From Lyophyllum atratum (taxonomy: Eukaryota > Basidiomycota > Agaricomycetes > Agaricales > Lyophyllaceae): a DNA stretch of 64,000 nucleotides. Of this stretch, positions 18,118 to 49,385 are shown piece after piece (positions within the stretch are counted from its first letter, which is position 1; every line of letters starts with the position of its first letter). The notes beneath the pieces are model-generated. The model ran no database searches, was not told the origin of the DNA, and saw nothing but the letters and a program-made list of their open reading frames with translations. The stretch is taken from positions 4,588,001-4,652,000 of the forward strand of contig JACGCN010000001.1 in NCBI GenBank assembly GCA_014905825.1. Reading direction: 5' to 3'. The position numbers and the translations under genes are program-made.

Positions 18118-19194
18118 ATGACTTCTATGCCCGATGTGCAGGATGCTGCCCGTATTGCTCAAAGAATCGAGCAACTATCCCAGGTTTGTGGCAAGGCTTC
18201 CGTCATTACCATTGATGTTCTGACCACCGTTTCCCGTACAGAACGTGAAATTCAACAAGAAAGCGTCTCGACGACTCGCGACAGACGCTCGCTCTGTAGT
18301 AGACATCTGCATCTTACTGTCCGAGTCCGGTGAATTCAACTCAGCCGACCACCTAGTCAACGTGGAAAATGTAGCACGGTGAGTAAAGAACATTTCAAGA
18401 ACTCCTTTATAGTACTTACCCATAATCTACGCTTCCAGTACTTTACAAGAGATCTGCGATTACACCGAACAGCAGGTGCTGAGGAACGTATGCGTTCTAC
18501 GATTTCGGCGCGAGACCGATGCGCGGCTAATACAGGAATACCGCCACCGGCTGCAACGTTTCATGTCTCATCTAAGCGTTAGTGTTCTACACTCTATAGT
18601 TGCTCAGCACTTTCAACATCAACATTGCAGCATACGTTATCATTGTTGAACGAAGCTTTATCCGTGTCTCTCCTGAATCATTTGGAACCTCAAGACAGAG
18701 ATGCGCACAACGCCCAGGCTCCAACGCAGCCCTCGAACGTTGACGAGGTAACGATCGATGAGGAGGTGACCCAGAGAGAACGTCGACAGACACGAGAGAT
18801 TTCTACTACCGTTCAAATACAGCAAGATGACCTTCCGGCCAGGTGGGCAGTACATGACCCCAGAGGGCTGCCCTTGTCCACGTCGAACCCATTTCGGCCG
18901 TCGGGAAGTCAGTTCGGGCCTCATGTATACTTCACACCTCCTAGCGCCTACTCGACGCCTCCTGGGCTATTCCTTCACCAGAGTTTCACTTCGGTCGCTG
19001 GCAGCCAGAACACCTATTCTCGTAGTGTCGTCAATACGAACTCTGGAAACACGACAACTCGCGTCATTACAAACTCGGGTAACAACACCTCTATGGTTGC
19101 CCAACACGGTGCGCCCATCGGGATCCAATCGGAGATATATTCGCTGACACCGTCCCGCAGGGAGAGGAAGATGAGGGTAGTTTTATTCCTCTAG
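18118..19194 (+). CDS. HeLo/MLKL_NTD-like helical-bundle protein with Asn/Ser-rich C-terminal motif (member i)
   Basis: Exons 18118-18183, 18242-18378, 18439-18577 and 18631-19194 join in frame (301 residues; intron phases 0, 2, 0). Helical segments: MTSMPDVQDAARIAQRIEQL, NVKFNKKASRRLATDARSVV, TLQEICDYTEQQVL and ARLIQEYRHRLQRFMSHLS. These align with the bundle of members iii-v. A disordered linker rich in T, S, P and R follows, with a charged stretch at about 145-180. The C-terminal motif is GSQNTYSRSVVNTNSGN followed by TTRVITNSGNNTS. The first exon is shorter than in iii-v: sequence equivalent to their first 30 residues is not obvious, so the true start may be upstream (the frame is open back to 17881). 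Family knowledge: HeLo-superfamily bundles permeabilise membranes when a C-terminal amyloid motif is triggered. That role here is inference. Confidence 0.65.
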
Positions 19195-19667
19195 TCCCTG
19201 GCCAGTATCTGCGCGGACTCCAAAGAGTCTTCCCTGGCATTCCATATCTCGCCCCGTTCCTAGTATTTATCTTATCTCGGACAGCTTTGGGGTTTGAATT
19301 ATACACAGCGCCTTTGACATCACCTGGCTCAGACTAATGCTTACTATACTTTGGAAGTCGCAATGATCTGTTCCTAGTCCGGCCTATGGATACGGGACAG
19401 AATATATTCACCGCGTTTCGTCATATCACCCTCCAGTGAAAATGGTCGCGTTATCAGGTTTGGTTTTCGAGTGTATGGTCTGCGAGTGTACATTAGCACA
19501 GCAAGACAGGGTATATACAAGGTAGCGTATAAGAACTTCGTAGAAAACGCCGGTATTGAAAGATAGGGACACGAGCAAATTCAGAGACAAGGCTTGCGAA
19601 GTCGTATGAGATACATCGTGAAACTAGATGCGAGAACAGTCCAGTGCAGCCACCAGCCAGTCGGGCA

Positions 19668-20712
19668 TCAATACCCGCGAATCTGAAGGCGCTGGTCTCT
19701 TCTCTCTCTCGCTACGGAAAGAGTCAGTCGAGATACTGTATTCCAGTAAGTAAAATACGAACTGTGATAAGTTCCGACAGACGAATCATTGTTCGAATCA
19801 GAGACGATACGAGTTATCGTATTGCCAGAGTTCGTACTGATGACGCTACCAGGATAGCTATTCTGGTTCCCCTGGACGGCGGTGAAAACGCCTTGCGGAG
19901 TTTGGGGCCCCGCAAATGTTGGATGGGAATCGAGAGGATTGAAGCGACGGCCAGAGGGGAATGAATGAAGGAACGGGTTGGTCTTGCGACCAAGGCTGGG
20001 TCTGTGTACTTCAGACGACCACACACTCGCTCCTTGTTCTGCGCTTCCCATCTGAGCCCTCTCCCCGAATGCCTCCTCGGAGGTCATCGATTTACCAGCG
20101 CCACCTCCTCAACTGTTTCTCTCATCGTATCACCCTCGCTCTGACCATGCTGCGTCGAGGCCGGTGGGTACGGTACTTCGTCATAAAGGGGCGGGCTTTC
20201 GTTCCGAGCATCCCATTTTGTGAGTGGGTCCGTGGTAGCCGCAACTTTATTGCCTGCGGACCTTGTCAAAATGAGGTGTGAGTGATTGGCATCAGAAATG
20301 GGTTACGAAGGTAAAATAAGATCGAACAGAGACTCCGGAGACATCCAAGGGAGGTTCTAAAGCGATCATGGCTTTCTCGAGTGATGCCGGCGGTAGCTTC
20401 GTTCTTAATCGTCTTCTTTAGCTTCAACAATAGCTTAGATACCTCGTACAAGTAGCTGTGAACGTAAGGTGTGGGTAAGTGCGGGGTGGTTTTAGAGGCG
20501 AGGGACCAACTCACCCATGTTCTAGTACGATAAATAGAAGGAGCGCGGCAGTACCCGTCGTGGTCTATGGGCTCCTGCGGGAGTGCACAGACTTCGTTTC
20601 CATCCCGGTTCCTGGATACAGGCACGGGAACATCATGTACATCGTGTGTTCTAGGGCAATAGACAAGGTTTAGTGCGGCCCATGTTGCGCAGAAAAGCGC
20701 TCCGAGCTCCAC
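19668..20712 (-). pseudogene. Diverged or broken member ii of the HeLo/MLKL_NTD-like family
   Basis: The C-terminal motif is clear on the minus strand: GNQNSYPGSVISTNSGNT, then ITRIVSDSNNDSSVG. Upstream, an exon YLYEVSKLLLKLKKTIKNEA followed by TRESHDRFRTSLGCL resembles the third bundle exon (EYRxRLxxSL at its end), but it is about 17 nt shorter than the invariant 139 nt seen in i, iii, iv and v. A linker (DPLTKWDARNESPPLYDEV) is in another frame and needs an unusual join to reach the motif exon at 20087. No equivalent of the first exon was found between 20712 and 21000. It faces member i tail-to-tail across about 470 bp. Most likely a pseudogene that keeps the motif. Confidence 0.5.
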
Positions 20713-20760
20713 GGCGGGGTGGGCGATCGCTTTCAGGGAATACTTAGTTTGAGATGCCGG

Positions 20761-22334
20761 ATGAGTCTATCTTCGAATGGTCATGATGTAGCATCGCCGG
20801 AAATCTTGTTTTAACGAAGAGTTGATGTGTATCGGATTAGCCCAACTTGATTTCTAAATGGGAATGTTATTGATAGATATTCAGGACAACGAATTGTACA
20901 GTCTCATACCACGCGCAGTGAGCATGTTCAGATGCGTGTCGCATTACCTTGGGACCATCTGTTATGACAAAGTTCTGTTGTCCTAGAAGGATAAACATCA
21001 GCGGGTACAAGGCGTTCATACGTTTGTGGGTCCATGATTGCGGAAGTTCTTCGGGATGATAAGTGTTCGGGCGCCATCGTCCAGTTCTAGATCTATTCGG
21101 GATATATCTGTCAGGCTGCTGTTTCATTGCATCAGGTCTGAATAGCAGTGAGCAATTGGTACACGAGAGTAGATACGGGAAGCAGAAATGAAGACGATGC
21201 AAGTTCAGGCGGAATGGCTCGAATGTCTTCGACAACGACAAGACACTAGCCTCTCTGGCGAGTCGGAGCAGAGGAACGTCTGAGTCGCACACATTTATAC
21301 CAGCATCAACACGTGGTTCTGTGGCCGTCATCCTCCAGCGCTGCCAGCAGTGCGGTTTGTCCATCCATTCATGCTGAGTCAACCTTAGAGGTCGAGCAAG
21401 CCCTTCTGTCAAGAAAGAGAGAGTTCCCGTTGTGATTAGCTGACTGTGCACCTCCCTCGGCAGTCGAGCCCTCGAATTACTTGTCTGTCTAACATTACAT
21501 AGGAATTCGACGAGACATGGCTTGCTAAGACATAGGGGACGTCATTTATGATGCCAGAGTGAAGAGCTCAAATATAACCCACAGATAATACCAGCCTCCC
21601 CCCTCCCGGAACCCGAGCGTCCATCCCAGCTTAGGTCCTCTATCAGCGCATGCCGTCCTTGGTCGATGCCCGATGCAGTCAAGCCAGATTCTTCATTTTG
21701 GTCCAAGTTGGGGGAAGGTAGGGGACTGTAGGGTCTAAAGTCCCATACAGAGGAGGAATCCAGAATTCGTATGACTCATGAATGGGATCTTCACTTGTCG
21801 GAATATGGTGGAAAGATAGTCGTCAGTTGGACTGACCACGATGCAAACCCTATGGGAAAATGTGACAGCCCGGTGTTCCTGTCACAGAGTAGGACAATCC
21901 TTCTTGACCCACGACTTCAGGCTCTTGGTACGCTTTTTTTTGACGAATTTTCGATGATATTTCCCGCGAGTGTTACATGTGGACATTTCTTCTAAGAGCC
22001 ACTCCGAGCTTGTCCTGTGGATCTGCCGTACCTAGGTTTGCATTGAAGTTTCTGACTCGGAACAGAGTGAGCGCCAACGAAGCGCCTGTGCATATATATC
22101 TACCTCGAGGCAAGATAAAGAGCACAGTACCACTTTCGTGCAAGTCGTGGGCAAACCTGGACGGACCGCACATCCGACGACGTCGATGAGGTGTCATTCT
22201 GTATGTAAACTAGCCTCTACCTGCGCTGGCGATTCGTCTTGGATCTTGATAACTTACGTTTATGCTTCACCTCCAGCAGGGTTCTCATGTTGGACAGAAA
22301 CCGCAGTCAGAAGCCCTACCTACAGCCCACCACG
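20761..22334. other. Intergenic, no gene recognised
   Basis: A long minus-strand open frame (20867-21451, 194 codons) shows no domain or splice continuation and could be chance. The last 100 bp before 22335 must contain the promoter of member iii. Confidence 0.4.
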
Positions 22335-23527
22335 ATGCGCAACCCAAAGACGAGGTCCAAGGATTCTCCAAAGCTCGGCACAGCGTTGGATTCATCGGAG
22401 GTCGTGCTGTCGACGCTCACGGAGGCTGCGGAATGGACGTCCTTGCCCTACTTGCAGGAAGTGGCTGGAGCGGCGCTGAGTCTCGTCAACATCGTCCAGG
22501 TATTTCGGCTCTTCCATTTGCTTTTCGAAATCTGGACCGCTTAAACTCGGACCTAGGATGTGAAAAGTAACAAGGAGGCTTTCAAACGGCTTGCGAACGA
22601 CGCATGTGCACTTGTGTATATTATCCTGTCGCGATATAAGGACGAAAACTCGAACAGCAAGGCGGCGGCTATGCCCGCCCATGTGACCCATGTAAAAGAT
22701 CTGGCTAGGTCAGTTTTCTTCACCGTTCGTTAAACATCGATCTCATTACTCCTCGATTAATTCGTTCAGAACGTTAGACGAGATATATAGATACGCTAGG
22801 TCCCAAGGGTCAAAGAATAAACTCGTCAAAATTATTCAGCACAAATCGGATGCCGGGGCGATACACGAATATCGCGAGCGATTGAGGCAATCCTTGGATG
22901 TTTTCAATGTCAGTATCTCTCTTCCTCGTCGCTTCGTAGCCTCTTTGACAACCATAGTCATAGGTCAAGTCAAGTATCTCTATACAAGACACCCTATCAT
23001 CGATTCAGGAGAAAATCACGCGCATGAACAGAGAACGTCCTGTACTTACATCACCAAAACAGCGCCCTCCACAGGCCGTTGCACATGAATCGGAACAGAA
23101 CAGAGTTGCGGAGAGCGTTGTTACTAAATCGGATTCAACGAGGGGTCTACATGGCGAAGTTCGCTCGAAAGGAGTCGTACCGATGTCGACGTCAAACGTA
23201 CCACACCTTCCTCAAAGTCCATCCCCCGGTCATGGCGTCGTGCCGTACGGTGTATACCCTTCCAGACCACAATCCATGTATCCGGGCCAACAACTGTCTC
23301 TGCCGTCTAATCTCCCAGCTATGTCTCCCTTTCATGCGAATCAACCTGGCTACTATGCACTACAGGGAGGTTCTAAACGAAGCATTGGTGGAGACCAAAA
23401 TACCTACAGCGGCAGCGTGATCAACACCAACTCGGGGAACGTGTCGACGCATATGGTCTCGAACTCCAACAACGATTCTTCGGTGAGAATAGGTAATGGT
23501 TCGTGCTCAATTTTCTACTCTTGTTGA
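22335..23527 (+). CDS. HeLo/MLKL_NTD-like helical-bundle protein with Asn/Ser-rich C-terminal motif (member iii)
   Basis: Four exons: 22335-22499 (165 nt), 22557-22708 (152), 22770-22908 (139), 22964-23527 (564), 339 residues, intron phases 0, 2, 0. Bundle: VVLSTLTEAAEWTSLPYLQE, VAGAALSLVNIVQ, DVKSNKEAFKRLANDACALV, TLDEIYRYARSQGSKNKLVK and GAIHEYRERLRQSLDVFN (residues 20-152). Exon 4 starts with the helix VKSSISIQDTLSSIQEKITR. A P/S/N-rich linker follows (about 175-300), with many Pro and Tyr. The C-terminal motif is GDQNTYSGSVINTNSGNV, then STHMVSNSNNDSSV. A GT at the SSV codon could be a splice donor into a further exon; if not used, translation stops at 23527. Fold assignment to the MLKL_NTD/HeLo group rests on the P.LQE.AG.AL....Q.VKSNK pattern and helical content. 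A membrane-disrupting role is inferred. Confidence 0.75.
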
Positions 23528-24449
23528 TGTTATAACTTAATCTTCTATGCAGGGACGAGACGACATAGATAGCGGAGACATGTACTGTTGGATGGGTTTC
23601 TTCGTGATGCGTACACCTACATGTCCTTTTGCATTCATTTTCCCTACATATACTTCGAGACAATATCGTGTACGCGCGCATTATCCCCGAATGTTAATGA
23701 GACTGACAGGGAACGGTCGTTTGTCCCGAGTTCCATGCTGCATCCGTGAGACCCCTTTCGTAAATATTTGAACACAGACTGCTTGGAATCCTCCCCGAAA
23801 AATGGATCTGATTCCGCGATTGAAAGTCGACAGCTTTCGCGATTGAAAGTCGACAGCTTTCACCATGCTCGAGTCATGCGTCTCCCCTCCATGTTTTCCC
23901 CTTTCCCCGAGCCTCGCACTTCTTTGTTCCTACGCATACCCATAATCCAACGACCCGCGGCGACGTCCACGACCCAGCACCCACACCAAGATGCTGAGCA
24001 CGACACGACACCAGCTTATTCCATGCTCCTCGTTCCTCACATGTACAGGGACCAACGGGGGTCGTTGCGCTGAAGGTACTTACCGCGCAGCCTCATGATA
24101 AACGCGCAATGGGACGCAGACTCGAAACCTTGACCGCAAGATTCGATAACATACGGAGCGTAGGCGTAATTCCCACATCGACCGATGCCGCTGACTTCCC
24201 CTGAAAACGAGAAACGTGCAAGAGTAGCCGAAGCCCATCACGCCACGTCTGCTACCACTCCCTTCCGCCACGGACAACTCCACTCCCATCCACCCCGCTT
24301 AAAAAGCGGCCGATACCCAATTCCACCCCTCCTCTTCAGCTTTCCCGACGGTGGTCGGTTCCTCGGTTTCCACCACCGAAGTCCGTGTTCGAGCACGACC
24401 AGGGCACAGGAATGACGCCGATTATTGGGGTAAGGCCCTCACGCTGAGC
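23528..24449. other. Intergenic, short tandem duplication inside
   Basis: No gene recognised. At about 23815-23862 a 23-bp unit (ttcgcgattgaaagtcgacag core) is duplicated head-to-tail. The frame following the possible alternative donor of member iii (RDDIDSGDMYCWMGFF at about 23554) is open for about 70 codons and could be an extra 3' exon. Confidence 0.35.
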
Positions 24450-25185
24450 GTCAACGTCTTGGAGAGTTGAGACCGTGATGATGGTATGGCCGTTCAATGT
24501 TTTGGGGCTTGAGGAGGAAAGCAGTCGGTGGGTGCGGAGGAAATGGCGAGGCTGTATCACGTGATCTAGGACAGGAGGAGAAGATGGTACTGCCACGAGT
24601 ACGAGCGGAAGGGGGAGTCGGAGAGGGGGAGGGAGTGAGGAGGTGTCTGTTACTGGGGACGTAGGCATGTGGGCTACAAGAGATGTGAACGCGTGTGCTG
24701 CCATCTCGGGTGGCAGGGGGCGATGGGTTAGTTTGGGTTTCCGCGCTCGTTCGAGGAGTGTGATATAACGGTGCCAATTGGAGTGGATCGTGAGAGAGGA
24801 GGTGGTGGTATAGAGGATGGCGCCAGGGAGGTTTGGCCCACACTCCGCTGATTGTGGTCCATCCGATTGAAACCAATGTATGGGCACCAACTCTAGTCCT
24901 GCTTCTCCTCACAAAGACTCTAGAGCCTCGGGAATCCCGTCTTGAATTCCATACACTGTTGCCCCGAAACGCCGATGCATGACGATCGGAGTAGGAAGAG
25001 GACCGTGTAACGGTCGTGAGCGATACGGGCGCTACGCAGCCATGAGTCCATGACACGCGGAAGAAGCGGAAGGAGATGGAAGAAGGTCTTCCAGGCTGCC
25101 GTTGTACATGTGCGGTGCTGTTGATATGCTCACTGAGATGTAGGGGGAAGGGAAGGAAACACGTACCATCGTCTTTTATCACCAC
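24450..25185 (-). repeat. Dispersed G/C-skewed repeat, copy R2
   Basis: The plus strand is G-rich and the minus strand is C/T-rich. Read on the minus strand from 25185, it shares blocks with the plus-strand segment 47940-48370: a start like gatggtacgt..., then catatcaacagcaccgcac, then gtaacagacacct and an atcacgtgat box, in the same order. The Pro/Ser-rich frames through it look like low-complexity read-through rather than a gene. Length and nature of the full repeat are unknown. Confidence 0.45.
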
Positions 25186-25439
25186 CTTGCCTTATCCGTA
25201 TACACCACCGAATGCTCATCCGAGGCAGCCACACCACCCCCATCGTCCTCCGCCATGCCAAATTCGCGCCCCGTTGAACAATATATAGCGAGTACGAGAA
25301 ACACGGGATGAAACAGCGACACCGAGCCTTGGAAGCCTTTCCTGGGTGGTGACGAAGTCGGGCCGGCATGGGGACGACCGAGCGCTGGGAATGGGGCGTC
25401 GGTTATCCAAGTTTTGAATCCCGTTGCTGAGCGATGAGG

Positions 25440-25975
25440 TAGGCGGAGGTCAGAACGATAGTCGTGGTATGGTCACACCGAGGTCCGAGGGCGAGGATGG
25501 CAAGACGATTCTGAACGGCGATATCGCATCATGTGATCTGGTACAGGAGGACTGCAAGGTTTGGGGCGGGATTCCGATAAGCGTGAGGGGGCGGGGGAGG
25601 CGTGGGCTGATGGTATGAGGGGGATTGCAAGAATGAAACACGTGGGACGGTGTATTCGGACTGAAGGATACCGGACGCGGGATGGGATCGAGTGGCTCCG
25701 GGGCTGCGAATGACAGCGGTACGAGCGGGGGTTTGGAAGAGCGGCCAGCGTAGCGAATCTGGCGGATGGGCAACCGCACCCCGATCGTTATCCATCTGAC
25801 GAAACCCAGATACCCGAACCAACACCTGCTCTGCTGCTGCTTAGGACGACTTCCTTCCCAATGCCGACGCACGGCGTTTGTGTCAGGGGATCCCGGTTTA
25901 CGCCAAGTGCTGTGGAATTGGACGACGCGGAGGGTCCAGGGTGGAAGAGGCTGAATCGGACTTCCTCGCAACACC
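25440..25975 (-). repeat. Dispersed G/C-skewed repeat, copy R1
   Basis: On the minus strand this segment begins with gaggaagtccgattcagcct, identical over 20 bp to plus-strand 47775-47794. It then shares lower-level similarity, including a box near 25530 (tcatgtgatctggtacagga) resembling the box in copy R2 near 24557. Together with R2 this gives two adjacent copies in the same orientation; R3 at 47.7 kb is inverted relative to them. No supported coding region. Confidence 0.4.
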
Positions 25976-27129
25976 TGGCCGAGCTGGGATGTCGATGTTT
26001 GGTCGGACGCTAGGCGTGGTCAGAGGCTGGTCATAATGCACAGATATGTGCGTGGGGTTCTAGACAACACGAATTAGCATCGAATGACGTGCGCGTGAAG
26101 ATGGAGTAGGACCGACCTTGGTAGCAGGACCGACCTGGAGCAAAATTACTCGGTCATCGACTATCGCGTCGCATGTAGGCGTCGAGTCGGAATCGCGCAG
26201 CTTTAGTAATAATCTTGAGCTTGGTTTGGCACGGCTGATATTAGCGACATTCTGCAATGGGTACGGTCTTGGAGACGGCGGGGAAACGGATATGGTGCAC
26301 GTGATGGTGGTTGAATGGGTTTTTGTTCCTTTGCCCCGCCGACGTTTGCCAAACAACCGCCCATCATCATTCAGATGCGATCCTGAGTCCCTTCCTTGTC
26401 CCTTCCCTCGTAAGGCTTCACACTAGTCAACTAGCAAACTGAATCTTGTATTCTTGACTGATCAAGTTACCACGTCAAGTCCTGTTGATCGGTGTTCAAA
26501 TTTCAAACGTTCAAGCTCTCAAGTTTCCTCAAATTATCTATAGTAAGTCGCGTTTGCTGACATATTGGTAAAGTATGTTGATCAGATCATCACTTGCCAT
26601 ATCGTGGACAGTCTGACATCTCCAATACCCATTTTGGTTGCCCCATCAGCCGTATAACGGTCCAAGACGAGGGGTCTTCTACCTCAATGTAAGTCGTCCT
26701 TACCGCTATCCTCAACCCAACTCAAACTGGCGAACAAGATGTAGGAAGTTACAGAAACGAAGGTCGAACGTTGAGCACCTATTACGGATTTCCCCCAATT
26801 CTTCAAGAACGTGCTCCTCTCTATCAATGACTGATCTTCGACTCCAAGTTCCCTACTACCTACTAGCTTTGGTTAGTCGCTCGGCCTGCTATTGTCGCAT
26901 TATCCTTGGACGAGTGCCCGACACGTTCACTACGCGTCACCTCATGGTCTCCGCAATGAGGACGCTGACGGCTGATCATTACGACAAGTGCTGTGCATTT
27001 CTCTGATGTCGAAGCATGTCGATCCTTCGTCCCATGGACTTCTCATCGAGTTGACGATATCAGCATCGCCAACTATGTTACGGACAGGCTCACAGGCCTC
27101 CTTTCAACCGAAGACTCGACGATCGAAGA
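25976..27129. other. Intergenic, possible gene fragments
   Basis: I cannot assign a gene. A plus-strand stretch at about 26990-27160 (frame beginning FSDVEACRSFVPWTSHRVDD and including DRLTGLLSTEDSTIEETKKT) looks protein-like but has no recognised domain and no clean exon borders. Confidence 0.3.
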
Positions 27130-27326
27130 AACGAAAAAAACCGCGCGTTTGGCAGCGTCGCACATTGCTTATCAGTGGTGTCTCTTGTCCTTTCCTCATC
27201 TGATCTTTGAGCCGCCGTTCTCTATATGAAGGGATTCGTACAGCTAGTACGTCGTGTGCTAATCCGGAACTGCGCATTCATTCCACCTTCAGCATCCAAC
27301 TCTGACGTGAAATTTGAATCGCCGAT

Positions 27327-28214: not shown

Positions 28215-28744
28215 ACGCTAGATGTATACCAGGAACGGACTTGTATGATGTTACCCCGTGGACTTTGAGTGTATATGTACATCACCTTCGTTAGAACGTT
28301 TCCGGTCACTACGTTCGCTGTTCTTCGTTTCGTATCCATTCGGAGACATTTCAGCACGCATCTGACTCTGAAAGGATACAAGAACGACAAATAGATTGAT
28401 AAATTACTGTCCGATATACAGGTTTCACAAGATCAACTCGATGGAGCCCCCGGTTCCCTAAGCCCAGCCTCACCACACAACAAACAACCGAATAAGTAGG
28501 TTATAAGTAGGTGTTATAATGAACCGAATGCAAATGAAAAGATACCCTCGCTATGTACTAACTGCGACGTATATGGGTCTATCGAGCACCGGGCGGCTCC
28601 AGCTCGCGCCAGCGAGGCCGCTGACAAGGTGGAATTGAGGGGAGAACCTATAGTGATGCCGCATAGTTTGCGCCTGAAGATTCACATGAAGAACATGTCT
28701 CGTTTCAAGAAGATAAGTACTCACAAGAATAAGTTAAGTCATTA

Positions 28745-29958
28745 TCACCGATAATTGTACGAATCGGAGACGACGTTAGTCGTCCTGTGGTTTGAATCAG
28801 TGTTGATGACACTGTTGATGTAGCTATAGTGAGGCGCACTGCTGGGATACGAGCAGCGCGGGCACGGAACTACGGAAAGGGTGCATGGTGAAGGATGGTA
28901 ACCCGTCGTAGAACAATGAGCGTCCCCTGATTGACTAGCAGAGCCAGAGTGAAGAGTAGAAGACGGGTGAGAATCAGATGAAAACGGATTTCTCCGACGG
29001 AAGTGATTGGACTGGGGCATCCGCAGCACCTCTGGAACGTGTGTTTCTCGGTGGGCACTTCGATTGGTCTCGGCAGCCCGAACCCATTCCGTCTGGAGTC
29101 GAGTTGGCTCTGGCATCTTCTCTTCGTGATCTGCTCTCCTAGCCATAGCGTTATCAGCATCTCCATCCTGGCCCCTGTCTTCCCCTTCCCTTGCGATATC
29201 CCCAGACATCGGCGAGTGGCCCTCCGCCCCCAGAGATGCCTGTCTTCGAGCCCTGCCCAAACGAAAATCCTTCGATAGAAGCTCGAATTTATGTTGAATA
29301 ACTGATACGAGTATACCTTGAATGGAAAGGGTTGGCTAGAACGATGCCGCCACTGCATCTTGAGAAGGGTCTGGAGAGATAAGGGCAGAGTACTGACATC
29401 GGACGGCCCCAAAGAATTCCTCAACCGATCGCGATACATTTGTATCGTTGCATCATCAGACTTGCGTTGCATCACTCGCGCAACGTTGCTCCTCGATGCG
29501 TGAGTTTTAGTATAATAGTGGATCTCGCGTATGGTCCTGGGAGGGGAGAAAATTAATGACCTACAGTGAAATACACATCCAGATTACAGACTCACTTGGC
29601 CAACGCTTCGTGATTATCGGTGTCCTTAGAGACCGCACTCGTCTTGTCCCTATACAGAAAGATGTATACCAGCGCGCAGACATCGTTCGCTAGTTCTTGA
29701 AACATGTCCCCCTTCAAACCATCTGGCTATTAGGACCGGAGAGTTAAGCATTATACTGATCGAACTTCGGCTTTCACATACCTGAATTTCAACCATTTCG
29801 TATAGACGCCGGGCTAATCCAGCGGCTTCCTGCATGCTCACGGTGGCATCGAGCCGTCCCGCAGTAGCATCTAGAGCCTCCAGCACAAAATGGGTCGTCC
29901 TTGAGGCAATTGCGAGCGTAGACGGCCCTTTTGACTTGCCCGTCGTCCTACATAACAT
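28745..29958 (-). CDS. HeLo/MLKL_NTD-like helical-bundle protein with Asn/Ser-rich C-terminal motif (member iv)
   Basis: Minus-strand exons: 29782-29958 (177 nt, ATG at 29958), 29596-29726 (131), 29398-29536 (139), then one or two short exons before the last, which ends at 28745. Bundle: HFVLEALDATAGRLDATVSM, QEAAGLARRLYEMVEIQ, DMFQELANDVCALVYIFLYR, TIREIHYYTKTHASRSNVAR and DATIQMYRDRLRNSL. Intron phases 0, 2, 0 and the 139-nt third exon match members i, iii and v. The linker is acidic and then S/H/P-rich. The C-terminal motif is shorter and diverged: PHYSYINSVINTDSNHRT, then NVVSDSYNYR as the last residues, so it lacks the GDQN start and the DSSV end. Function inferred as for member iii; the altered motif may change partner specificity or be decaying. 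Confidence 0.7.
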
Positions 29959-31178
29959 CGAATGAAGGGGAAGAGGGTCTTTGCAAGCTCTTCACGGCGA
30001 AGTGACCTCGACCATGTATTATAAACGGCCTGGCGCTTGATGGGGCAATAATTAATTGACGCCGTAATATTAGTAAATCAACGAAAGCACGCCTCTAGCC
30101 AGCTAGCACGTTTGCAGGTGCAGCAAACCTACCCCGAGGAGAAATGTTCCCCATATCGATGGTAAAATGACGAGTTTGTGAGTAATTCCACTGTTTCAAG
30201 CCAAGCCCTCTTACGTTAGAAGCCGTCCAGCTGGAAGCAACTAAGCATCTGTAACTAAATAGAATTGAGATCGCGAGGAAAAGGGGAGAAATAAAAATAG
30301 ACGTACATTAGCCATTTGATGCCAGCCCGTTCGCGAAGCCGTCATACGACGCCTCCTCCTCCATCCACGCAATTGTGGTTCCGACATATACGACACAATG
30401 ACTGGGCAACAAAAGACGGGATAACCGGCCTCGAGAGGCAAATATGCAACGTGGCCTGCGCTGTACCACACCGCGATCGATCCCCTCCCCGTCTCGTATG
30501 CGCTTTTAATAATTGCAAACCAAACAACGTTAACAGCCCCTAGTTTCAGACACAAATTACAGATTACCCTAGAACGCGTCCATTGTTAGAGCTCTTTGCG
30601 CCAGCTTCACAAGGAGAGTGGTGCTTACGGGTGGTCTCCCGAGCCTGACATCCCGACTCGTATCCTAGCTAAGGCACGATGCGATATCGAACAGCGAGGG
30701 GTTTGCGGAATCCTCACTCAACTGGTCGAACCGTCTCGCAAAACGATTTGATCAACGTACGCGGGTCCACTGCGAGAGCTCAGAGACGTCCTGCGCGCTG
30801 TATATCCTGATGTTGAGGCTGCATTACGGTGGTCCGGAAGACAGGCGCCGCAGTCGTAGTGTGGGAAAACGAATAGTCGGACGGAACCTACATGTCCAGT
30901 ATTTACTGGATTCCGTCGTCTGCATGAAGGACGCTCGCGTGAAACATGATGCTCAGCTATGGTGAGGTTGAAATGATAGGAAATGAGGAAAACGTGGTCC
31001 ATTGGCGTGACAACACGTTTTTCTTGCATGTTCAGCCAACGTTTGCCTTGCTCTGTGATGTTGCCAGTTCGAGGATAGTGTGTTGGTAAACGCCTGGCAG
31101 AAGGAAGAACCCCACGTCTGGACTTTGTTTATGTATGACCCGCTCGGAGTGGGAGTACGAAAAGCCTGACTGGCAGTG
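29959..31178. other. Intergenic
   Basis: It holds the upstream region of member iv (see the conserved block at 30044) and otherwise no recognisable gene. Short overlapping frames at 30241-30555 and 30718-31029 have no motif. Confidence 0.4.
30044..30063 (-). promoter_or_regulatory. Upstream block shared by HeLo-like genes iv and v
   Basis: GGCAATAATTAATTGACGCC (plus-strand reading) lies 86-105 bp upstream of the start of member iv. The same 20-mer with one change lies at 40764-40783 upstream of member v, in the same relation to the gene. It may be a shared regulatory site or simply residual similarity from duplication. Confidence 0.4.
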
Positions 31179-31333
31179 GGAAAGAAAACGCTTCGCGTCA
31201 CGATAACACGCGTGACGTGACACGACGACGTCTCTCCTCCACCACGACCATGGCCATCGCACCGCCAGCGACGACGAGGACCTCAACGATCCCCCGCTCA
31301 AACGTTCACGCCTTTCTTCATCCTCACCATCTC
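31179..31333 (+). repeat. Duplicate of the MAU2 promoter and first codons
   Basis: This segment matches 33427-33583: aaagaaaacgcttcgcgtca versus aaagaaaacgcgtcgcgtca, then acgcgtgacgtgacacg, then gacgacgaggacctcaacga and cgctcaaacgttcacgc. The ATG is present (31250), but a base is missing relative to MAU2 right after it, so the reading frame is lost. Similarity stops around 31333. Together with the true MAU2 5' end it brackets the GH62 gene as direct repeats about 2.25 kb apart. Confidence 0.8.
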
Positions 31334-31738
31334 GACTTAGGGCATCAAACGCAGGGTTGACACAGAGCACATGACAAGACGAGACGAAGTTAACCTTCTA
31401 TGACAATACCATGTACCGGGGGAGGCGGTAAGATCGCGGACGGAAGATGAGCAGGTGCGATGTCACATTCCGCAGTCATGTGGCCGGGGCGGAATGATAT
31501 AGCCTGATGTGGGGAGAAATAATGGAGACCGACGGATTTCCGAGGATGCCTACGATCGAGCTACGAATTCTCCGGCAGCCACCCTATGATCCCGCACTCG
31601 ACAGTAAGCAACCGTGATTCTCCCATGGCCCCGACATCCTCGTTCATCATTCCCCGCCATTTCTCCAGCAGCCTCCGTTGCAAGTTTAAAGGCGTATGAT
31701 AGACGACGAAATTCTCCTCAGCATCGGCATCGCCCACA

Positions 31739-33060
31739 ATGCTTCAAGCTCTTATAGTCCTTTCGATGACAATCTCGGTCGCTTTGGCCGGTGTACCGCT
31801 CTGGGGACAGTGCGGCGGCGTACGTATTGGATTATTGTCCATCGCACGCTCCTTGCTGACCGTCAGATCTATAGCAAGGCTACACGTATGGCTGATTTAT
31901 TTGCACGGTGATCACAGAGGTGACTGACCGTTCTCTTAGTGGCCCAACATCATGCGACGAGGGCATATATGCGGTTTCAAACCGTGAGTTACAGCTGTCG
32001 CGAGTTGCATTTAGTCATCGCTAAATCACATCCAGAATGGTACTCCCAATGTATTCCGGGCTCAGCCACGACGACGATGGCTACCACGACCACAACCACT
32101 GTGCCTAGCGGCAGCGCAAACCTTCCCACCAGCTACAAATGGAGCTCGAGCGGCCCACTCATTGGCCCTAAATCAGATGGCCGAAACATCGCTGCGCTGA
32201 AGGATCCCTCCGTCGTATACTATAACGGCAAATACCACGTCTTCGCCAGCACCGCGACCGCTGGAGGTTACAACATGGTCTACCTGAGCTTCACGGACTT
32301 CAATCAAGCAGGGTCAGCGACCTATTACTACCTCGACCAGACCCCGATCGGTTCGGGTTACCGTGCGGCCCCTCAGGTGTTCTTCATGGCGCCGCAGAAC
32401 AAGTGGTACCTCATCTACCAGAATGGTAATGCGGCGTACTCGACCAACTCGGACATCAGCAATCCAGCGGGTTGGACGGCGCCCAAGAACTTCTATAGTG
32501 GTGTGCCCGACATTGTTAAGAACAACATCGGCAGCGGCTACTGGGTCGATATGTGGGTCATTTGCGATTCGGCCAACTGCCACCTCTTTTCCTCCGACGA
32601 TAACGGGCACCTCTACCGCTCGCAGACGTCAGTCGGCAACTTCCCGAACGGGATGGGCGAACCGGTCATTGCGCTCCAGGACGCCAGGAACAACCTGTTT
32701 GAGGCGTCCAACGTCTACAAGGTTGGCGATACCTACCTCCTCGTCGTCGAGTGCATCGGCAGCGACGGGCGCAGATACTTCCGCTCCTGGAGCTCGAGCA
32801 GCCTCAGCGGCTCGTGGGCGCAGCTCGCTGCATCGCAGGCTAACCCGTTTGCGGGTGCTGCCAATGTTGCGTTCAGCGGTGGTTCCGCGTGGACGAAGGA
32901 TATAAGCCATGGGGAGCTGGTCCGCACGAATGTGGATCAGACGATGTCCGTTAGTGTGTGCGGTATGCGCTACCTGTACCAAGGTATCAGCCCCAGCGCG
33001 GGCGGGGACTACAACTTGCTCCCTTGGAAGCTCGCGCTCCTTACCCAGACCAGCTGCTAA
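31739..33060 (+). CDS. Secreted GH62 alpha-L-arabinofuranosidase with N-terminal CBM1
   Basis: Exons 31739-31819, 31875-31885 (11 nt), 31940-31983 and 32036-33060 give 386 residues. Signal peptide MLQALIVLSMTISVALAG. CBM1 cellulose-binding module VPLWGQCGGQGYTGPTSC ... QWYSQCIP, with the expected Cys and aromatic residues; its middle depends on the 11-nt exon. Thr/Ser linker, then the GH62 domain (about residues 75-386). GH62 residues visible: Asp in ALKDPSVVYYNGKYHVF, Asp in SGYWVDMWVICDSANCHLF, and Glu in ARNNLFEASNVYKVGD, the family's catalytic set. Family knowledge: releases L-arabinofuranosyl side chains from arabinoxylan, supporting plant cell-wall degradation. The mature protein is extracellular. 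Flanking direct repeats derive from MAU2. Confidence 0.93.
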
Positions 33061-33498
33061 CTGGTGATTCGGACGGATGTCGGTGGGGGATGTAATCTTT
33101 CTTCCGCGTTCTGCTATTTTATATCGTATCGAGTTGTCCTGGATGCGTCGAGGACTACGTACTAGATAAGAAGGCTGTAGCTCAATAGGAATGAGAGCCA
33201 GCTGTCGGTCGGACGAGCGATAAGCATACTGACAGTTTTCGTTGAGTTTTCGTTCATGCCACCTGCTTCGTGAGTGAAGCTAGTGAAGTCTGAAATTTAA
33301 AGAGCAGCGTGTCCACCTTGAGTCCTCATTTGTAGATTGCAGTTGTCAAATTTGCAAACGGTCCTGACGGCCGAGCTCTGCTTCAGTTGATTCCAGCCTG
33401 AGCAGAAAAGTCGGCCTGGCGGACTCGGAAAGAAAACGCGTCGCGTCACAATGACACGCGTGACGTGACACGTCGTCCTCTCTCCTCCCACCATCATT
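33061..33498. other. Intergenic between GH62 and MAU2; second copy of the duplicated segment
   Basis: Contains the GH62 3' flank and the MAU2 promoter. From 33427 it matches 31179-31333. A tRNA-like D-arm string (tgtagctcaataggaatgag) near 33176 has no matching T-arm and was rejected as a tRNA. Confidence 0.5.
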
Positions 33499-36301
33499 AT
33501 GCCCGTCCGCACCGCCAACAACGACGAGGACCTCAACGACCGCCCGCTCAAACGTTCACGCATTTCTTCGTCCTCATCCTCCCTATCCTCCTCTGGGCTC
33601 TCTTCTCCATCGTCTACTCAACGAAGCTCAACGCGCGCAACATCCGCGTCACCTTGCCTGCCACCGTCTGCGAACGATACCACACCCACGAAAGCAAATC
33701 CAGGAGGCGCGGCTCTCCAACGCCTCCCACCAGCGACACTCCTCCTTGCTCTGCCCTCGCTCCTCCTACACCCGCCGTCACACAAGCTACACCTTCAGAG
33801 CGTATCGCTGGCCCAACATGCCTTGCGGCGATGCCTAGCATTACCAGCACTCGAGCCAGCGGAGGAATGCCGTGCATGGACGGGGCTCGCTGAGCTCGGG
33901 ATGATGCGGCTTGAGGCGTTTGGAGACGGGGTGGGCATGGGAGACGTCGAGCAGGCGTTGACCAAAGCTGTTCGTACATTTTTTCTCTCTCTGACTCCAC
34001 GATTCTTTCAAACTCACATCGACTTCTTTATTCAGATGTTACTTTCCCAAAAGGTGTGTCTACCCGTCCCCAGCGCACTCGATCAGCTAATCTTATATAT
34101 CAACTCCACAGCACCCCGCCCTCCGCCTCTACACGCCCCATCTAACTATCCTATCAGCCCGCCTCGCCCAGCATCACCAGTCCAACTCCAAATTCGCCGC
34201 GCACACCCTCCGGCGTCTCCTCACATCCCTCGCACGTCCACCCCCGAACGTCGGTGTCACCCCCCCCCACGTACTATTCGGCGCCCATCTAGCGCTGGTA
34301 CATAGCTACTGGTGTGCTGCGGAGGACGAATCTATGGAGACCGGAGGGGGGAAGGGGAAAGGACCGGCCAACGCGAGAGAGGGGACGGCGGGGGGAGCAT
34401 TACTTAAGTGTCTAGGCGCCTTAGACGACATGCATAAGGCGGGACGGGCACTCCTTGGCACCGACGAAGAGGCTGAGGGGACCAATCTCCTGATTCTCCT
34501 GGTGCTCGTCGTCCGATTACAGCTGCTCGTCCGGCACGGGCTCTGGGCCAAGGTCCCCGAGGAGCTTACAGCTGCCGAGCTGGCGTTCAAGATGTACGAA
34601 GGAGTGGAAGACCGTCCAAGTGGTGCTGATAAGTCAGGCGAAAGGCCTGGTAGCCCGACTCCCACATCGCAGAGTCAACCGCCCGTGACGCGAGGGCTGA
34701 TACCTGATCAACATCCAATCCCGGCGCCGCTACGAGTGCACCTCCTCATGCTTGCTGTGTTGTTCCACACGTACGCGGGCGACGCGGGGGCTGCGTCGGA
34801 GCGGCTGCAGGCGCTACATGCGCTGCTCGATACTGGCGTTCTGGGGCTCGGTGGAAAAGGGGCAGAGGAGGGCCAGGGCCAGGACGGGGTCATCGAGGTA
34901 CATCCCTTCCCTTTCCCTTCCTTCCTTCCTTCCTTCCTTCTTTTCATTGGTAGCTAACGCGTACGCTCCCACAGATCCACTTCCCAACCCCTCATAACAC
35001 CCGCCCGCTCCTCGTTCGATGCACGCCGCCTCGGGTGTTGAATGCGCTGGCGTTTCTGCTTAGTGCGGTGGCGAAACGCGATGCGGTGGGGAGGGCGCCG
35101 AAGAAGGGGGTGTTTGCGAGGGCGGGGCTTGGGTTGAGGGAGTTTGGGGGGAGCGTGGCGGGTTTTGGTGGGCCGGAATGTGAGTACCCCCCACTCCTCC
35201 TACCTCCTTTTTGTGAGGGAAGTGGGTGTTGATGCGTTTTGGTGTGTAGGGACGTTGGGGGAGAGTGGGAGGGAGAGGGAGAGGGTGGGGGGGAGGATGG
35301 AGAGGGTGAAGGCGGATTTGATGGGGGAGGTTGTTGCGGTATGTCATGCTTCCCCGTTGCTGTTTCGTCGTTCTGACCTTGTGTCCTCCTCTACCATAGA
35401 TATCCATCATGCGATCTGAGTTCGCCGAGGCCCAACGCGCGGTAGACGAGTTGACGGCGCATACGAGGACGCATGGGCTGTTCCCTGCGTATGCGGCAAG
35501 GATAGCGCTGCAGCATGCGCAGCTGGCGCATGCGAGGGGCGATGCGGAAAGGGCGTTGAGGTGTTATGAGGTTGCTGCTTATGTAGCTGCCGGGACAGGA
35601 GAGGAGGGAGGGGAGGGAGGGGAACGAGACGAGTGGGTGCGTGTCGCGGCGAGGGCGGGGGAGGTGTGGGTCCGCGTTGGGCTCGTGCGTGCGCGGAGGA
35701 CGCATGGGGAGGAGCGAGAGGTGGAGTTGGAATTGGAGATGGAGATGGAGAGGCTGAGGAAGCGGGGTGGGGAGGTGGTGAGGGAGTGTGAAGGACTAGG
35801 TGGGACGCTTATGGCTGTCGGGGAGGTGCTCAGAGCGTGTCTGGCCGAAGAGGTTTTGGGTGCCAAGTTCGTTCCCTTTTCTTTCTCTCCGGGTTGGGGT
35901 TCGTACTGATGATGCATTGATGGTATAGGCAGCACCTAAGGCGCGCCCTGGATCTAGCGACTAGGGCACAGGATAATCATCTTCGGGCGCTGGTGCTGGC
36001 GCTTATTTCGGCGCATTATTTGCATACGGCGCGGGAGCATGCTATGACCATGCTTGGGACGTGTGGGCAGCTTGCTGCGGGGCTTGGGGCTGTTAAGAAG
36101 GCCGAGCCACTTGGGAAAGATGGTGGTGGGAAGGCTGGGAACGGGAAGACGGAGGTGGGGGTGGGGAATGCGCCGCTGAGGCTGTGGGTTGGGGAACGGG
36201 TGGGGGAGTTGAGGAGGTGGAAGGGGGAGGGGGGGATGGCGGAGGGGCAGGGGAGGGTGAATGGGAGGGTGAGGGAGGTTGTGCAGGCGGGGAGGAGGTG
36301 A
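33499..36301 (+). CDS. MAU2: MAU2/Scc4-type cohesin loading factor
   Basis: Start MPVRTANNDEDLNDRPLKRS. Ser-rich N terminus, then helical TPR-like repeats: SHKLHLQSVSLAQHALRRCL, GMGDVEQALTKA, a six-codon exon (MLLSQK), HPALRLYTPHLTILSARLAQ, TPPHVLFGAHLALVHSYWCA, VHLLMLAVLFHTYAGDAGAA, then SIMRSEFAEAQRAVDELTAH and YAARIALQHAQLAHARGDAE. C terminus: LVLALISAHYLHTAREHAM, TMLGTCGQLAAGLGAVKKAE and GNAPLRLWVGERVGELRRW, which are characteristic of fungal MAU2. The stop is at 36299-36301. At least seven short introns; exact borders of the small ones (near 33970-34110, 34900-34975 and 35180-35250) were not all fixed. Known role: partner of Scc2 in loading cohesin onto chromatin; nuclear. The single-copy housekeeping gene is strongly GC- and purine-rich, and low-complexity Gly/Glu loops are inserted between repeats. 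Confidence 0.85.
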
Positions 36302-37292
36302 TGGGGAGACTGGAATGATTGCTATCCGCGCGCTGGAAATGGACCCTAGCTTGCTCTGTGTTGTTTGTTTTGTTGTTGTTTTCGACGTTTTGAGGTCTAG
36401 TTTTTGTACGTGTTTTGTGGGATCGTTGCACTTATGTTGGGATTCGGATGTTAGTGTTATGGGTATGCCTGGACGTTCGAACTTCGCGCTTGGCTGGGCC
36501 TTTGGGCCATGCCTCGAGGAGGGTTGTTCGGATAAAATAACTGCAAACAAAATCGGCCTAAAAATCGGTCCGTTGGCCTCACGCTTTCAACATCGTGCCG
36601 CCGACGTCATCCCAGACGTGTCATGGTTATCCAGGTTCATGACAACATTGAGAACGCGCGCCATTTAAGAGTCAAAATGCCTCCAGCTCGTGGTCCATGG
36701 TACGCTTTCCCATACCTACCGATTCTCCTTCTCCTTCTCGAAGCCCTTAGACTTTCGATGGATGACACGATGAAGGCAGCGCACGGCCATCGCGCGATGT
36801 CTAAGGATGTGGAGACGTACAGATTCCTCTCTTCACTCTCTTGGCATGTCGAAACTGTCTGCATGCCGCGTGTGCCGTGCATCTCCGGACTTCCGGCTCT
36901 CATTCTCTAGTCACTGAAAATTTCGTTCATGACAGGTTACAGACATCCTCGAAGGACTGTGATGTACCTCTTGCATGGAATTCGAAGGATTGGAGTTCAT
37001 TACCGACGAAGGTGGAGTCGAGGACCGTACACGGGGCTGGGTATACGGCATTGGAATACCGTCGATGAAGGAACGCTGATGACGACGTCCTCATCCGATG
37101 TGCGAGTGATCCCCGCTGTACCCCTATTCCTTGGACTTCCTGACATTCTCAACCCAATAGGGCTTTAGACCCGCATCGATTACCATGATCAAGCTTGTTC
37201 AGGCATAGGAATGGTCGGCCTGGGCGGATATTACCTCGGGGTAGTGTATAAAACGACTTGGACTCATGGCATCTAGAGCTTGAAAATTATCA
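36302..37292. other. Intergenic, no gene recognised
   Basis: Contains the MAU2 3' flank (T/G-rich 36350-36430). Small frames at 36623-36910 and 36929-37168 have no domain. The last 60 bp, with a TATA-like gtgtataaaacg at 37246-37257, is the likely promoter of the secreted-protein gene. Confidence 0.4.
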
Positions 37293-38051
37293 ATGGCTTG
37301 TTTCGCGCGATTCTACGCTCTTCTGGCGACCTCGCTACTCGTACTAAAGGTGCGTGACGATTTAATAGCATATCTACCGATGATACTCATCTTTCTATCT
37401 CTTCACGTAGTTCACCTTTGCGCTCAGTCTCCAAAGTCATCAGGCCACCACATGCATACACTCCTCCGCCCCTGCATTCAGCCTCTTGGCGCGGTACAAG
37501 AACGCGCCTGCTTCAACGATCGCCCTTCACGTCATCGACGTCAACTCCATCCTCAAAGCCAGCTACGGCATCCTCTCCGTTCGTGCCCCCCTTCATTCAC
37601 TTAAAATATGTACATTACCTGATTTTATAAAAAGACATGCTCCGCCTGCACCGCGACGAACACCCTCGAAAATGGTGCCATCTTCCCAAAGTCTGCTTCC
37701 AACCCTAATCAACGCACGATCTCGTACTCCCTTGTCGAAGGCGATTCCCCAGTCTTTTTAAGCAGACAATTCCTGCCGCCTGCAACTCCGGTGTACTGTT
37801 TCACGGTTCGTCTTTCCCTTACGTTCCCTCTCATCTTTAGCGCTAACTGTTGCGGACACGGATGCTAGGATAACGTTGTGGATCCTGTTGCAGGCGCCCC
37901 GGTCTTAGCGGCCGGGGGCGATACGGAGCGGTGGGCGCTATGCTCGAACTCGACTGCAGGTGGACGCGTGGATGTCGTGTGGGCGCCGAGGGTGGGGAAT
38001 CCTCATTATATTAAGGATGGTTGCAACGAGGTGTATATCGAGCGGGTCTAG
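37293..38051 (+). CDS. Small secreted Cys-containing protein of unknown function
   Basis: Exons 37293-37349, 37411-37578, 37635-37805 and 37869-38051 give 192 residues. Signal-type N terminus MACFARFYALLATSLLVLK, then FTFALS. The body has regularly spaced Cys: HQATTCIHSSAPAF, KASYGILSTCSACTATN, then PPATPVYCF, ERWALCSNSTAG and NPHYIKDGCNEVYIERV at the C terminus. The pattern ALHVIDVNSILKASYG suggests a conserved basidiomycete secreted family, but I know no function for it. All joins keep frame and all introns have GT..AG. Intron 1 lies immediately after the signal peptide. It could be an extracellular binding or effector-like protein; this is only inference. Confidence 0.75.
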
Positions 38052-39121
38052 ATGTCGATGGGGGGATGCCTGGGGGACATGGTGGTAGTATTGAGAACTC
38101 GTGGTGGAGACGAGGTGATCGGTAACGTAATTTGCGCTCTTCTGTAATTCATCCGGAGAATGCATGACTTGATGATGTGAACCCTTTCAGGGGAATGATC
38201 TCACCTATTACAGCGCCTGTTTGACTTGCCTCTGAGTCATACCTCGAGGTAGATGGAAGGTGATGAGCACTTCGGTTACAGGACGCTATTCTAATATCCT
38301 TCCATCACTTCATAATTAGCCTCAGAACAGGTCATAACCCCAATAATGATATCCCATTACAGCGTCCACGGATATGAAAATCTCATCTTGATAAGCGCCG
38401 AGATACGAGATGGATATGCGAGCGGCATATAACCACGATATTGCTATGCCAATAGCCTCTCTGTACATCATACGGTGAAGAGAAGATATGCAGGCGGCCT
38501 TCTCTCTGTCCCAATTCCCGCTCCGCCTCCTGTTGCTCCCTCAGACGCTGTATCTCGGCGCGCAGCCTCATATTCTCCTGCTCAGACAAGATATTAGGTG
38601 CGCTCGGCGGACCCGCATCCAGCTGGAAATAAACGAGCCATCTTCCCCTCAAAGATTACATCGAGTCCGAATAGCAGTAGTTGTGATGTGTATCATATGT
38701 AGATACGTAAGTCGAAGTATAACGGGAATGTAACTCAACGTACACATCTCAGGCGGATAATCGCTACTGGGATAAACGACTGAGGGCTGAGGGACGAAAA
38801 CGGACGGGGAGTTGTGAGACGAAAGTACTCTAATTAATCATGTAAGTAAACCTAGGTAAATCGAGATATACGTAGCCTTGTAATTGATGCCGGAACGCGC
38901 ATGCATGGTGAGTACAATGAGTAGATATCTCCCGCTTGAATATGATACTTACAGTGACGAGGATAATCCAGCGTCCCTGATAGGACCGGAAAGGCATGAC
39001 ACGGGTGCGGTGATAGCCGCGCCATCCAAAAAGCCATCATTTCTTGAAAGCTGGCCTTCTTCCACGCGAAGATGGGCCGATCGAGTATGAAAAGACTATC
39101 TCCTCCGTCCTGGCCCTCTCC
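38052..39121. other. Intergenic, with a short coiled-coil frame
   Basis: A minus-strand frame at about 38383-38620 reads NILSEQENMRLRAEIQRLRE followed by QQEAERELGQREG, a typical coiled coil, bounded by a plausible acceptor at about 38622. It may be an extra 3' exon of member v or a remnant of another gene. I could not connect it. Confidence 0.35.
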
Positions 39122-40600
39122 CTAGGGACACAGTATGAGCAAAAGCGGCACGGGGAAGAAAGATGAACCCGAACCGTGATACATTCTCACTGAAGAATCA
39201 TTGTTCGAATCTGTCACGGTATGGCTACTCGTATTGCCAGAGTTGGTGTTGATTACGCTGTTGGAGTACCTGTTTTGGTCTCCACCGACAGACATGTAGC
39301 TACCATGCGCGGAATCAAGGCCAGGATTCGCAAAGTGTAGGCCAGGAATACCCGAGTAGAGACCAGGTGAGGATTGTATGCCTGGCGTGAACTGTAGACC
39401 AGGAATGGTCGGATTGCCTCCACGAGAAGTGGATTGCGATCCAGGAATAGGAGAGTGAGCACCTGATAGGGGTGGTTGCAGATTAGGATGGTTTGGCTGA
39501 AGGCTGGATGACGATGAATGTTGATCCTGGAAAAATGGGTTTTGCTGGCGGAATGGGTTTGAATCTGGTGTCGTGGCTGGAACAGAGTTTTTCTGGTGCA
39601 GCGCCATCCGCTCCTCGTCTCGAACACGAGCGCTCTCGGACCTTTCAGCTTCTAACCGAACTCGCTCTAGCCTCGACCGTTCGTCTCTCGCTCTCTCCGC
39701 CCTAGCTTGCTCGGTCAAGGCGTACCCGGCCCTCTCTTTCTCGGCCCTCTCCCTTTCTAACTTCTCAGTCTCAGCATACTTCTCCTTTAAGGCATTCTCC
39801 CTTTCTTCTGCAACTCTTGCCAGACGTTCAAATTCTCTCTCCGGAGCCTCGGTCTTTACTGATTCATGCCTCTGCTGCTCGTCTCGATGTAGCTCTTTGG
39901 CCTGATCGCCCATACGTGTGAGTTGCTCCTGGATGGATACCAGCGCGTCTTGTATGGAAAGAGAAGACTTGACCTGTGACGATTCGTATTAAACAGGTTC
40001 AAAGGAGAGCGACGTCGGAATACCAACGCTGAAGAGATCTAGGGAATGCTTCAGCCGATCACGGTATTCTTGCACCGTCCCAGCGTCGGATTTATACTGC
40101 AGCATCCGGAGAAGTCGGTTCCGCGATGCCTGCCTCTTAGTATAGTTGTAGATTTCGTGCAACGTTCTGACAGAGGATCAACGAGGTCAGAACTGGTAGA
40201 TGCATATGCGAAATTTTGGAAACAGACTCGGCCAAGTCTCTTGCGTGGTCGAGGTAGGCGGGTGTGACGGTTGCTACCCTGACTGCAGCTTTGTCTTCTC
40301 GGCACAGGATAATATACACCAGTGCACAGGCGTCATTGCCGAGGCGGTGGAATGAGCTTTTATTGCTTTTGACACCCTATTATATCGATGAGTCGTTCTT
40401 GGCGACGGTAAGAGTACTAGCTCACATACCTGTATCATGTTGATTATGCCGAGAGCTACTCCAGCTGCCTCTTGCAGGTAGGGCACTGGTGTCAGTCGCG
40501 CAGCATCAGCGAGCGTCGATAAAACCAATTCGGATGAGTCTAAGGCGATAGCGAACTTTGAAGGTTGCGGGGCGTCCTTCTCTCTCGCGAACCATGGCAT
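39122..40600 (-). CDS. HeLo/MLKL_NTD-like helical-bundle protein with coiled-coil linker and Asn/Ser-rich C-terminal motif (member v)
   Basis: Minus-strand exons 40430-40600 (171 nt), 40228-40376 (149), 40028-40166 (139), 39122-39973 (852) give 436 residues; phases 0, 2, 0. An in-frame ATG also exists at 40621. Bundle: LDSSELVLSTLADAARLTPV, PYLQEAAGVALGIINMIQ, GVKSNKSSFHRLGNDACALV, TLHEIYNYTKRQASRNRLLR and GTVQEYRDRLKHSLDLFS. Exon 4: VKSSLSIQDALVSIQEQLTR, then about 115 residues of E/R/K/A heptads (for example LKEKYAETEKLERERAEKE), a coiled coil absent from members i-iv. An N/P/G/S-rich stretch with repeated 'PGLxxxPG' units follows, and the C-terminal motif GDQNRYSNSVINTNSGNT, then SSHTVTDSNNDSSV. 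Suggested role: oligomerising, amyloid-triggered membrane disruptor (inference). Confidence 0.78.
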
Positions 40601-48948: not shown

Positions 48949-49385
48949 CGTAGGGGGATTCAAACTCCGCCGCAATACCTTCCCAAAGCGGATGACCAGC
49001 CAAAATCGCGACCTCCCTCCGCGCGCACCATGAGAACGGGAACCAGACACGCAACCTATGCCATTCTTTCTCTGGAAAGCCAAAGTATTCCATTTTATTT
49101 GTAATAAACAGAAAAAAAACGCGAAAATCCGACTCCGAAATGTAGCTATACTCATGAACTTCGTGTTCCAATGCAAATTTTGGGAATTTTTTTTGTTAGT
49201 TACAAATCAAATACTAAAAGACGCGTAACCAGCCTATTACGGGGCTGTAATGGGTTCTGCGTCGCGTTGCTGACAATCGAATGGGCACCAGTGTGATGGC
49301 AGCGAAAAACAAATGTAAACAAGCGCGGCGCGTCCACTAATTGGCACATATTTCGCGTTTTCATCATCTCCTGGCCCTCCCAGAA

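Follow-up and report, generated by a model that had tools for sequence, protein, structure and literature searches.

Which signals would set off a family of putative cell-death proteins whose genes are clustered on one stretch of a mushroom genome? The stretch, called the window here, is 64,000 nucleotides of Lyophyllum atratum (C1:4588001-4652000, where C numbers denote contigs), from an assembly of 64.8 Mb and 151 contigs in which genes contain introns and many regions are present as two haplotypes, as judged from paired places. A first-pass annotation of the window had described five loci, i to v, that join an N-terminal helical bundle of the HeLo/MLKL_NTD kind to a linker and a C-terminal motif, and had read them as candidate amyloid-controlled executors of cell death. 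With confidence that is evenly balanced, we read them as Agaricomycete MLKL-like executors that would be clustered through this motif (unit B) and would receive their signal from NOD-like receptors (NLRs) carrying a different N-terminal motif (unit A), either directly or via small proteins that contain A followed by B.

The family is real, and its members are unequal. A six-frame reading of the window located the motif core at all five loci, and the length of about 33 residues given for the motif was correct; however, only iii and v are intact. Gene iii (22335-23572, plus strand; bundle exons 22335-22499, 22557-22708 and 22770-22908, linker and motif exon from 22964) encodes a putative MLKL-like executor, P0001, of 336 residues, with unit B at 23384-23503; its last intron and short basic end were placed by hand using P0001. 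Gene v (minus strand; exons 40600-40430, 40376-40228, 40166-40028 and 39973-39122) encodes its 436-residue counterpart P0002, with unit B at 39167-39289. Our models of both genes agree with the public ones. The 41-residue motif of v, used as query, matched in the window v at E 7.0e-20, iii at 3.2e-11, ii at 3.0e-8 and i at 4.5e-7. The bundle of v, used as a genome query, matched all three bundle exons for v and iii, and exon 3 alone for iv (E 2.6e-8) and i (E 9.5e-4). Gene i (18118-19194, plus strand; exons 18118-18183, 18242-18378, 18439-18577 and 18631-19194; unit B at 18994-19113) is a diverged relative with a short first exon, modeled with introns that sit where those of other members do and splice in frame. 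Locus iv (28745-29958, minus strand) has a decayed motif near 28747-28830: its tail reads SVINTDSNHRTTNVVSDSYNYR, the Ser-Gly turn is lost, and genome searches with the 41-residue motif of v and with a second motif query both missed it. Locus ii is an open frame with the motif (19668-20108, minus strand; unit B at 19758-19877) and gave no match to the bundle of v among 35 scored genome candidates; an exon-3-like remnant can be seen by eye in the frame 20266-20766.

These differences bear on the earlier proposal that the five loci form parallel, mutually compatible or incompatible channels. Five equal channels were rejected: counted by hand, the motifs of iii and v agree at 27 of 35 residues, that of iv has decayed, and no bundle was recovered at ii. 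Because of these same features, one shared channel is simpler than five.

The motif recurs well beyond the window. The 41-residue motif of v matched 16 genome places at E up to 10, comprising four window loci and 10 executor places (three on C65, two each on C103 and C97, and one each on C67, C108 and C71); the other two, on C24 and C81, are weak. A second motif query matched 19 places, 14 of executor type (ii counted) and five in small genes, and a further one matched 10, nine of executor type and one small gene. The same architecture is found elsewhere in the L. atratum genome and in L. shimeji, Tephrocybe rancida and Collybia nuda. Protein searches, one of them limited to the 8000 best candidates scored, gathered 18 relatives, of which 16 were aligned; the fragments P0017 and P0018 stand outside all alignments. 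Inspection by eye shows a clear motif in P0004, P0006, P0011 (Lyophyllum shimeji), P0013 (Tephrocybe rancida) and P0014 (Collybia nuda), a divergent one in P0015 (metagenome) and P0016 (Collybiopsis confluens), and none in P0005, P0009 and P0010; a search with the tail of P0004 returned only its self-match among 10 candidates. Since the motif is present at 14 executor-type places in a two-haplotype assembly and in three other species, and remains alignable between distant paralogs whose linkers align poorly, it is more than a chance resemblance.

Some features of the relatives lie outside the motif. In most public models, a last intron is followed by a short basic end past the motif: TRRHR, RGPGRRR, RGRRR, RGPRKY or RGRWK (P0001, P0003, P0004, P0011, P0012). 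NPF tripeptides were noted by eye in 8 of the 16 aligned relatives; they occur in the linkers of i, iv and v and of relatives. Five bundle-like places (C65:25320-26708, C97:77313, C97:154896, C13:791443 and C46:84466) gave no match to two motif queries and are possibly executors or remnants without the tail.

The AlphaFold model of P0001 contains two strands (residues 302-308 and 311-317) around the Ser-Gly turn of the motif, at predicted local distance difference test (pLDDT) values of 48 and 50 for the two blocks, and a linker (residues 181-300) at pLDDT 32-43. Such low-confidence strands would fit a beta-arch and prove nothing. A prion domain named in Pfam was provisionally rejected as the identity of the motif: five motif peptides matched no Pfam family at E up to 10, in a comparison that covered Pfam rather than the published profiles of the named motifs HRAM, PP, sigma and PUASM and in which HMMER filters drop weak matches.

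The resemblance of the bundle to MLKL has moderate support, from Pfam matches below cut-off and from predicted structure. In a structural comparison, five MLKL entries stood among the first 20 rows; these rows are a second scoring of Foldseek's own list, which leaves room for families outside that list. The Pfam family MLKL_N matched 2 of 16 relatives at E up to 1, with a best match (E 4.5e-5) of 23.4 bits against a cut-off of 27. Several results weigh against the assignment. This best match was P0009, a relative without the motif. No curated family reached its cut-off, MLKL_N had 0 matches on the unspliced genome, PDB sequence searches did not reach MLKL, Foldseek returned nothing under E 0.001, and designed helical proteins equaled or outscored MLKL in the structural comparison. 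The best row of the PDB sequence searches (E 4.5e-4) was set aside, its match being in the linker region.

The earlier annotation had also proposed looking for the executor motif at NLR N-termini. None of the three executor-motif queries of the genome (16, 19 and 10 places matched) placed the full motif at an NLR; the NLRs carry unit A instead. One NLR N-terminus, used as query, matched 12 genome places, 11 of them within 300 bases upstream of a same-strand NOD domain; the remaining one is a small gene. By hand arithmetic, the chance that a random place falls in such an upstream zone is 1 to 2 in 10,000. Further NLR places with unit A are at C1:4513 kb, at C65:178 kb, on C68 and on C71, for a total of 15 with alleles counted separately, 13 of which were read in sequence. 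The NOD list used comprises 66 places, with sequence taken for 40, and a partial NACHT place at C1:683546 lies outside it.

A second protein type with the motif does exist, so the result that the earlier annotation had named as refuting its reading, a motif seen in no NLR or second kind of protein, did not arise. The weak motif places on C24 and C81 are N-terminal: short frames there start MPFFEKASDVNIYNGDFKDIAGSHNIYNG and continue with an executor-like half. A genome search with this N-terminus matched 29 places, which we class as 15 small genes, 11 executor-type places and 3 places just upstream of NOD domains. Eight of the 15 small genes, all predicted gene models, were read in sequence: four have a clear B half (C24:1329, its C81 allele, C1:4574 and C24:1344), three a weak one (C1:4571, 4576 and 4580 kb), and the C108 gene has unit A only. 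Four small genes lie 7-16 kb beyond the left edge of the window; the B half is clear in one of them (C1:4574) and weak in the other three. The small genes in L018, L060 and L061 end near NNPF (one), KDPF, NNPY or KNPY.

The two sides, NLR and executor, match different halves of the small proteins. The executor profile (A5, 14 tails) aligned over 41 columns (positions 15-55) with a 4-row small-gene profile, at E 1.6e-10 (5.2e-11 with a 6-row profile), and the NLR profile (A6, 9 N-termini) aligned with positions 1-27 at E 3.2e-9 (6.6e-8 with 6 rows); reversed small genes, as control, gave E 0.067 and 0.078. A5 was built without locus iv, C65-iii, C65-i, C103a, C103b, C71, P0015 and P0016, motif-less relatives being ineligible, and A6 without 6 of the 15 NLR places (two unread, two near-identical alleles and two found afterwards). 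Single pairs behave alike: C24:1344 and an executor tail share 12 of 21 residues (E 3e-5), and the C71 NLR and C1:4574 share 12 of 26 (E 4e-7). Judged by these similarities, what is new here is a match of unit B to the latter half of the small-protein N-termini and of unit A, their first half, to the N-termini of NLRs. Three points count against a link between the two sides. The profile rows were collected by similarity, which flatters the E-values; the NLR and executor profiles match each other over only 11 columns (probability 12%, E 0.0025); and executors and their nearest unit-A NLRs are not adjacent, with about 92 kb between them on C1 and 68 kb on C71. The placement of unit A just before NOD domains is independent support.

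In the pathway that we favor, the disordered linker would keep the MLKL-kind bundle apart until unit B brings executors together, probably through homotypic stacking of an amyloid-like kind. NLRs of the same genome that bear unit A would most likely supply the trigger when they oligomerize, and the gathered bundles would go on to injure the membrane and cause cell death. We infer that templating carries the signal from receptor to executor; its passage from A to B could be direct, via an 11-residue overlap, or could run via the small A-then-B proteins. A direct passage is a tentative option: A and B would be parts of one long motif of which NLRs and executors keep different stretches, meeting at a core that both retain, G-x-[FY]-x-D-[IV]-x-G-[DN]-[HQ]-N, and the small proteins would serve as decoys or regulators or be what is left of lost NLRs or executors. 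The 11-column overlap between NLRs and executors suggests this, as does P0014 from C. nuda; because A and B appear to stand side by side in its executor tail, the two may be a single long motif. The weak B half in three of the four small genes beside the window and the A-only gene on C108 point the same way, and direct NLR-executor pairing has been proposed in two other species (PMC9815663). However, the overlap match is weak, at the 12% probability given above, and the genome queries found the full executor motif at no NLR. A three-part relay of unit-A NLR, small A+B adaptor and unit-B MLKL-like executor is doubtful, since only one of the four small genes near the window has a clear B half. 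Such a relay would be a short-motif counterpart of the NLR-ASC-caspase inflammasome, where a small protein has one receptor-like and one effector-like half. The small Lyophyllum proteins share this division, but with short motifs in place of death folds, an MLKL-like effector and a putative bridging role. If the relay exists, one chromosome stretch carries the genes for adaptor and executor together with a motif-bearing NLR some 92 kb off.

It is unlikely that the proteins are no killers at all, with the motif a non-amyloid oligomerization or targeting element and the bundle a set of trafficking or scaffold helices. NPF is a tripeptide bound by EH domains in membrane traffic, and its presence in half of the aligned relatives would fit such a role, as would the moderate resemblance to MLKL in a search where helical bundles match widely and the modeled motif strands at pLDDT near 50. 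Against this reading, the best natural structural rows repeatedly include MLKL entries, and the partner unit A sits at NLR N-termini, the site of fungal death-signaling motifs (PMC9815663).

That paper already proposes Agaricomycete MLKL-like executors with a C-terminal amyloid-like motif and defines them as BaMLKL; it describes such motifs in few executor tails only, with executor-side motifs being rare, and reports that NLR and executor genes are not co-localized in Basidiomycota, adjacency being usual in Ascomycota (PMC9815663). The BaMLKL proteins of Moniliophthora roreri and Fibularhizoctonia resemble the L. atratum executors in the MLKL-like bundle, moderately supported here, with an extra N-terminal helix ahead of it, the C-terminal motif, a related motif at the N-termini of NLRs encoded in that genome and the non-adjacent genes. 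In contrast to BaMLKL as described there, one conserved motif here runs through a family found in three further genera, the NLRs carry a neighboring unit, and small A+B proteins exist. The HET-S/NWD2 and HELLP systems of Ascomycota (PMC9815663 and PMC12881547) combine a membrane-attacking bundle that has a C-terminal motif with an NLR that has an N-terminal one, as is proposed for the L. atratum executors, whereas here no named prion-domain family was matched, the NLR genes are not neighbors, and the direct motif match is weak. Unit A, compared by description only, fits the NLR05/08/22/29/44 group, which is very N-terminal, about 25 residues long, ends in G then D or N, and is carried by dozens of Agaricomycete NLRs (PMC9815663); unit B falls outside this group as described. 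In the same paper the word adaptor is confined to the reference list (three uses), and literature searches, made largely by listings, for a fungal adaptor of the A+B kind or for Basidiomycete executor work gave nothing closer. The conserved executor motif and the receptor- and executor-like small proteins supply defined peptides for asking whether mushrooms use amyloid signaling from NLR to executor, and whether their pathway includes an adaptor step.

The executor cluster differs between haplotypes. Window 37.5-44.8 kb and window 16.5-26.8 kb both have counterparts on C65, where their orientation relative to each other is reversed, and comparison of window 16504-44811 with C65:37984-56423 suggests an inversion-like rearrangement inside the cluster. 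The 27-37 kb stretch with iv had no counterpart within the fetched part of C65, and bases 19517-19820 are also without one, so that the second half of the ii motif is absent there. Turnover of immune genes by birth and death would account for such differences; assembly error is a possible alternative source.

Other genes lie in the window. A glycosyl hydrolase family 62 gene (31924-33060, plus strand; Pfam 1.3e-65) has on both sides a 172-base repeat (31159-31326 and 33405-33576, 84% identical). Two long frames of 299 and 725 residues lie side by side at 49341-52418 (plus strand); the longer is without a Pfam match and presumably resembles a transposase. Near the left edge are exons of a TauD-type dioxygenase (141-770, minus strand; Pfam 1.2e-18) and an MFS transporter (5255-5929, plus strand; Pfam 3.3e-12).
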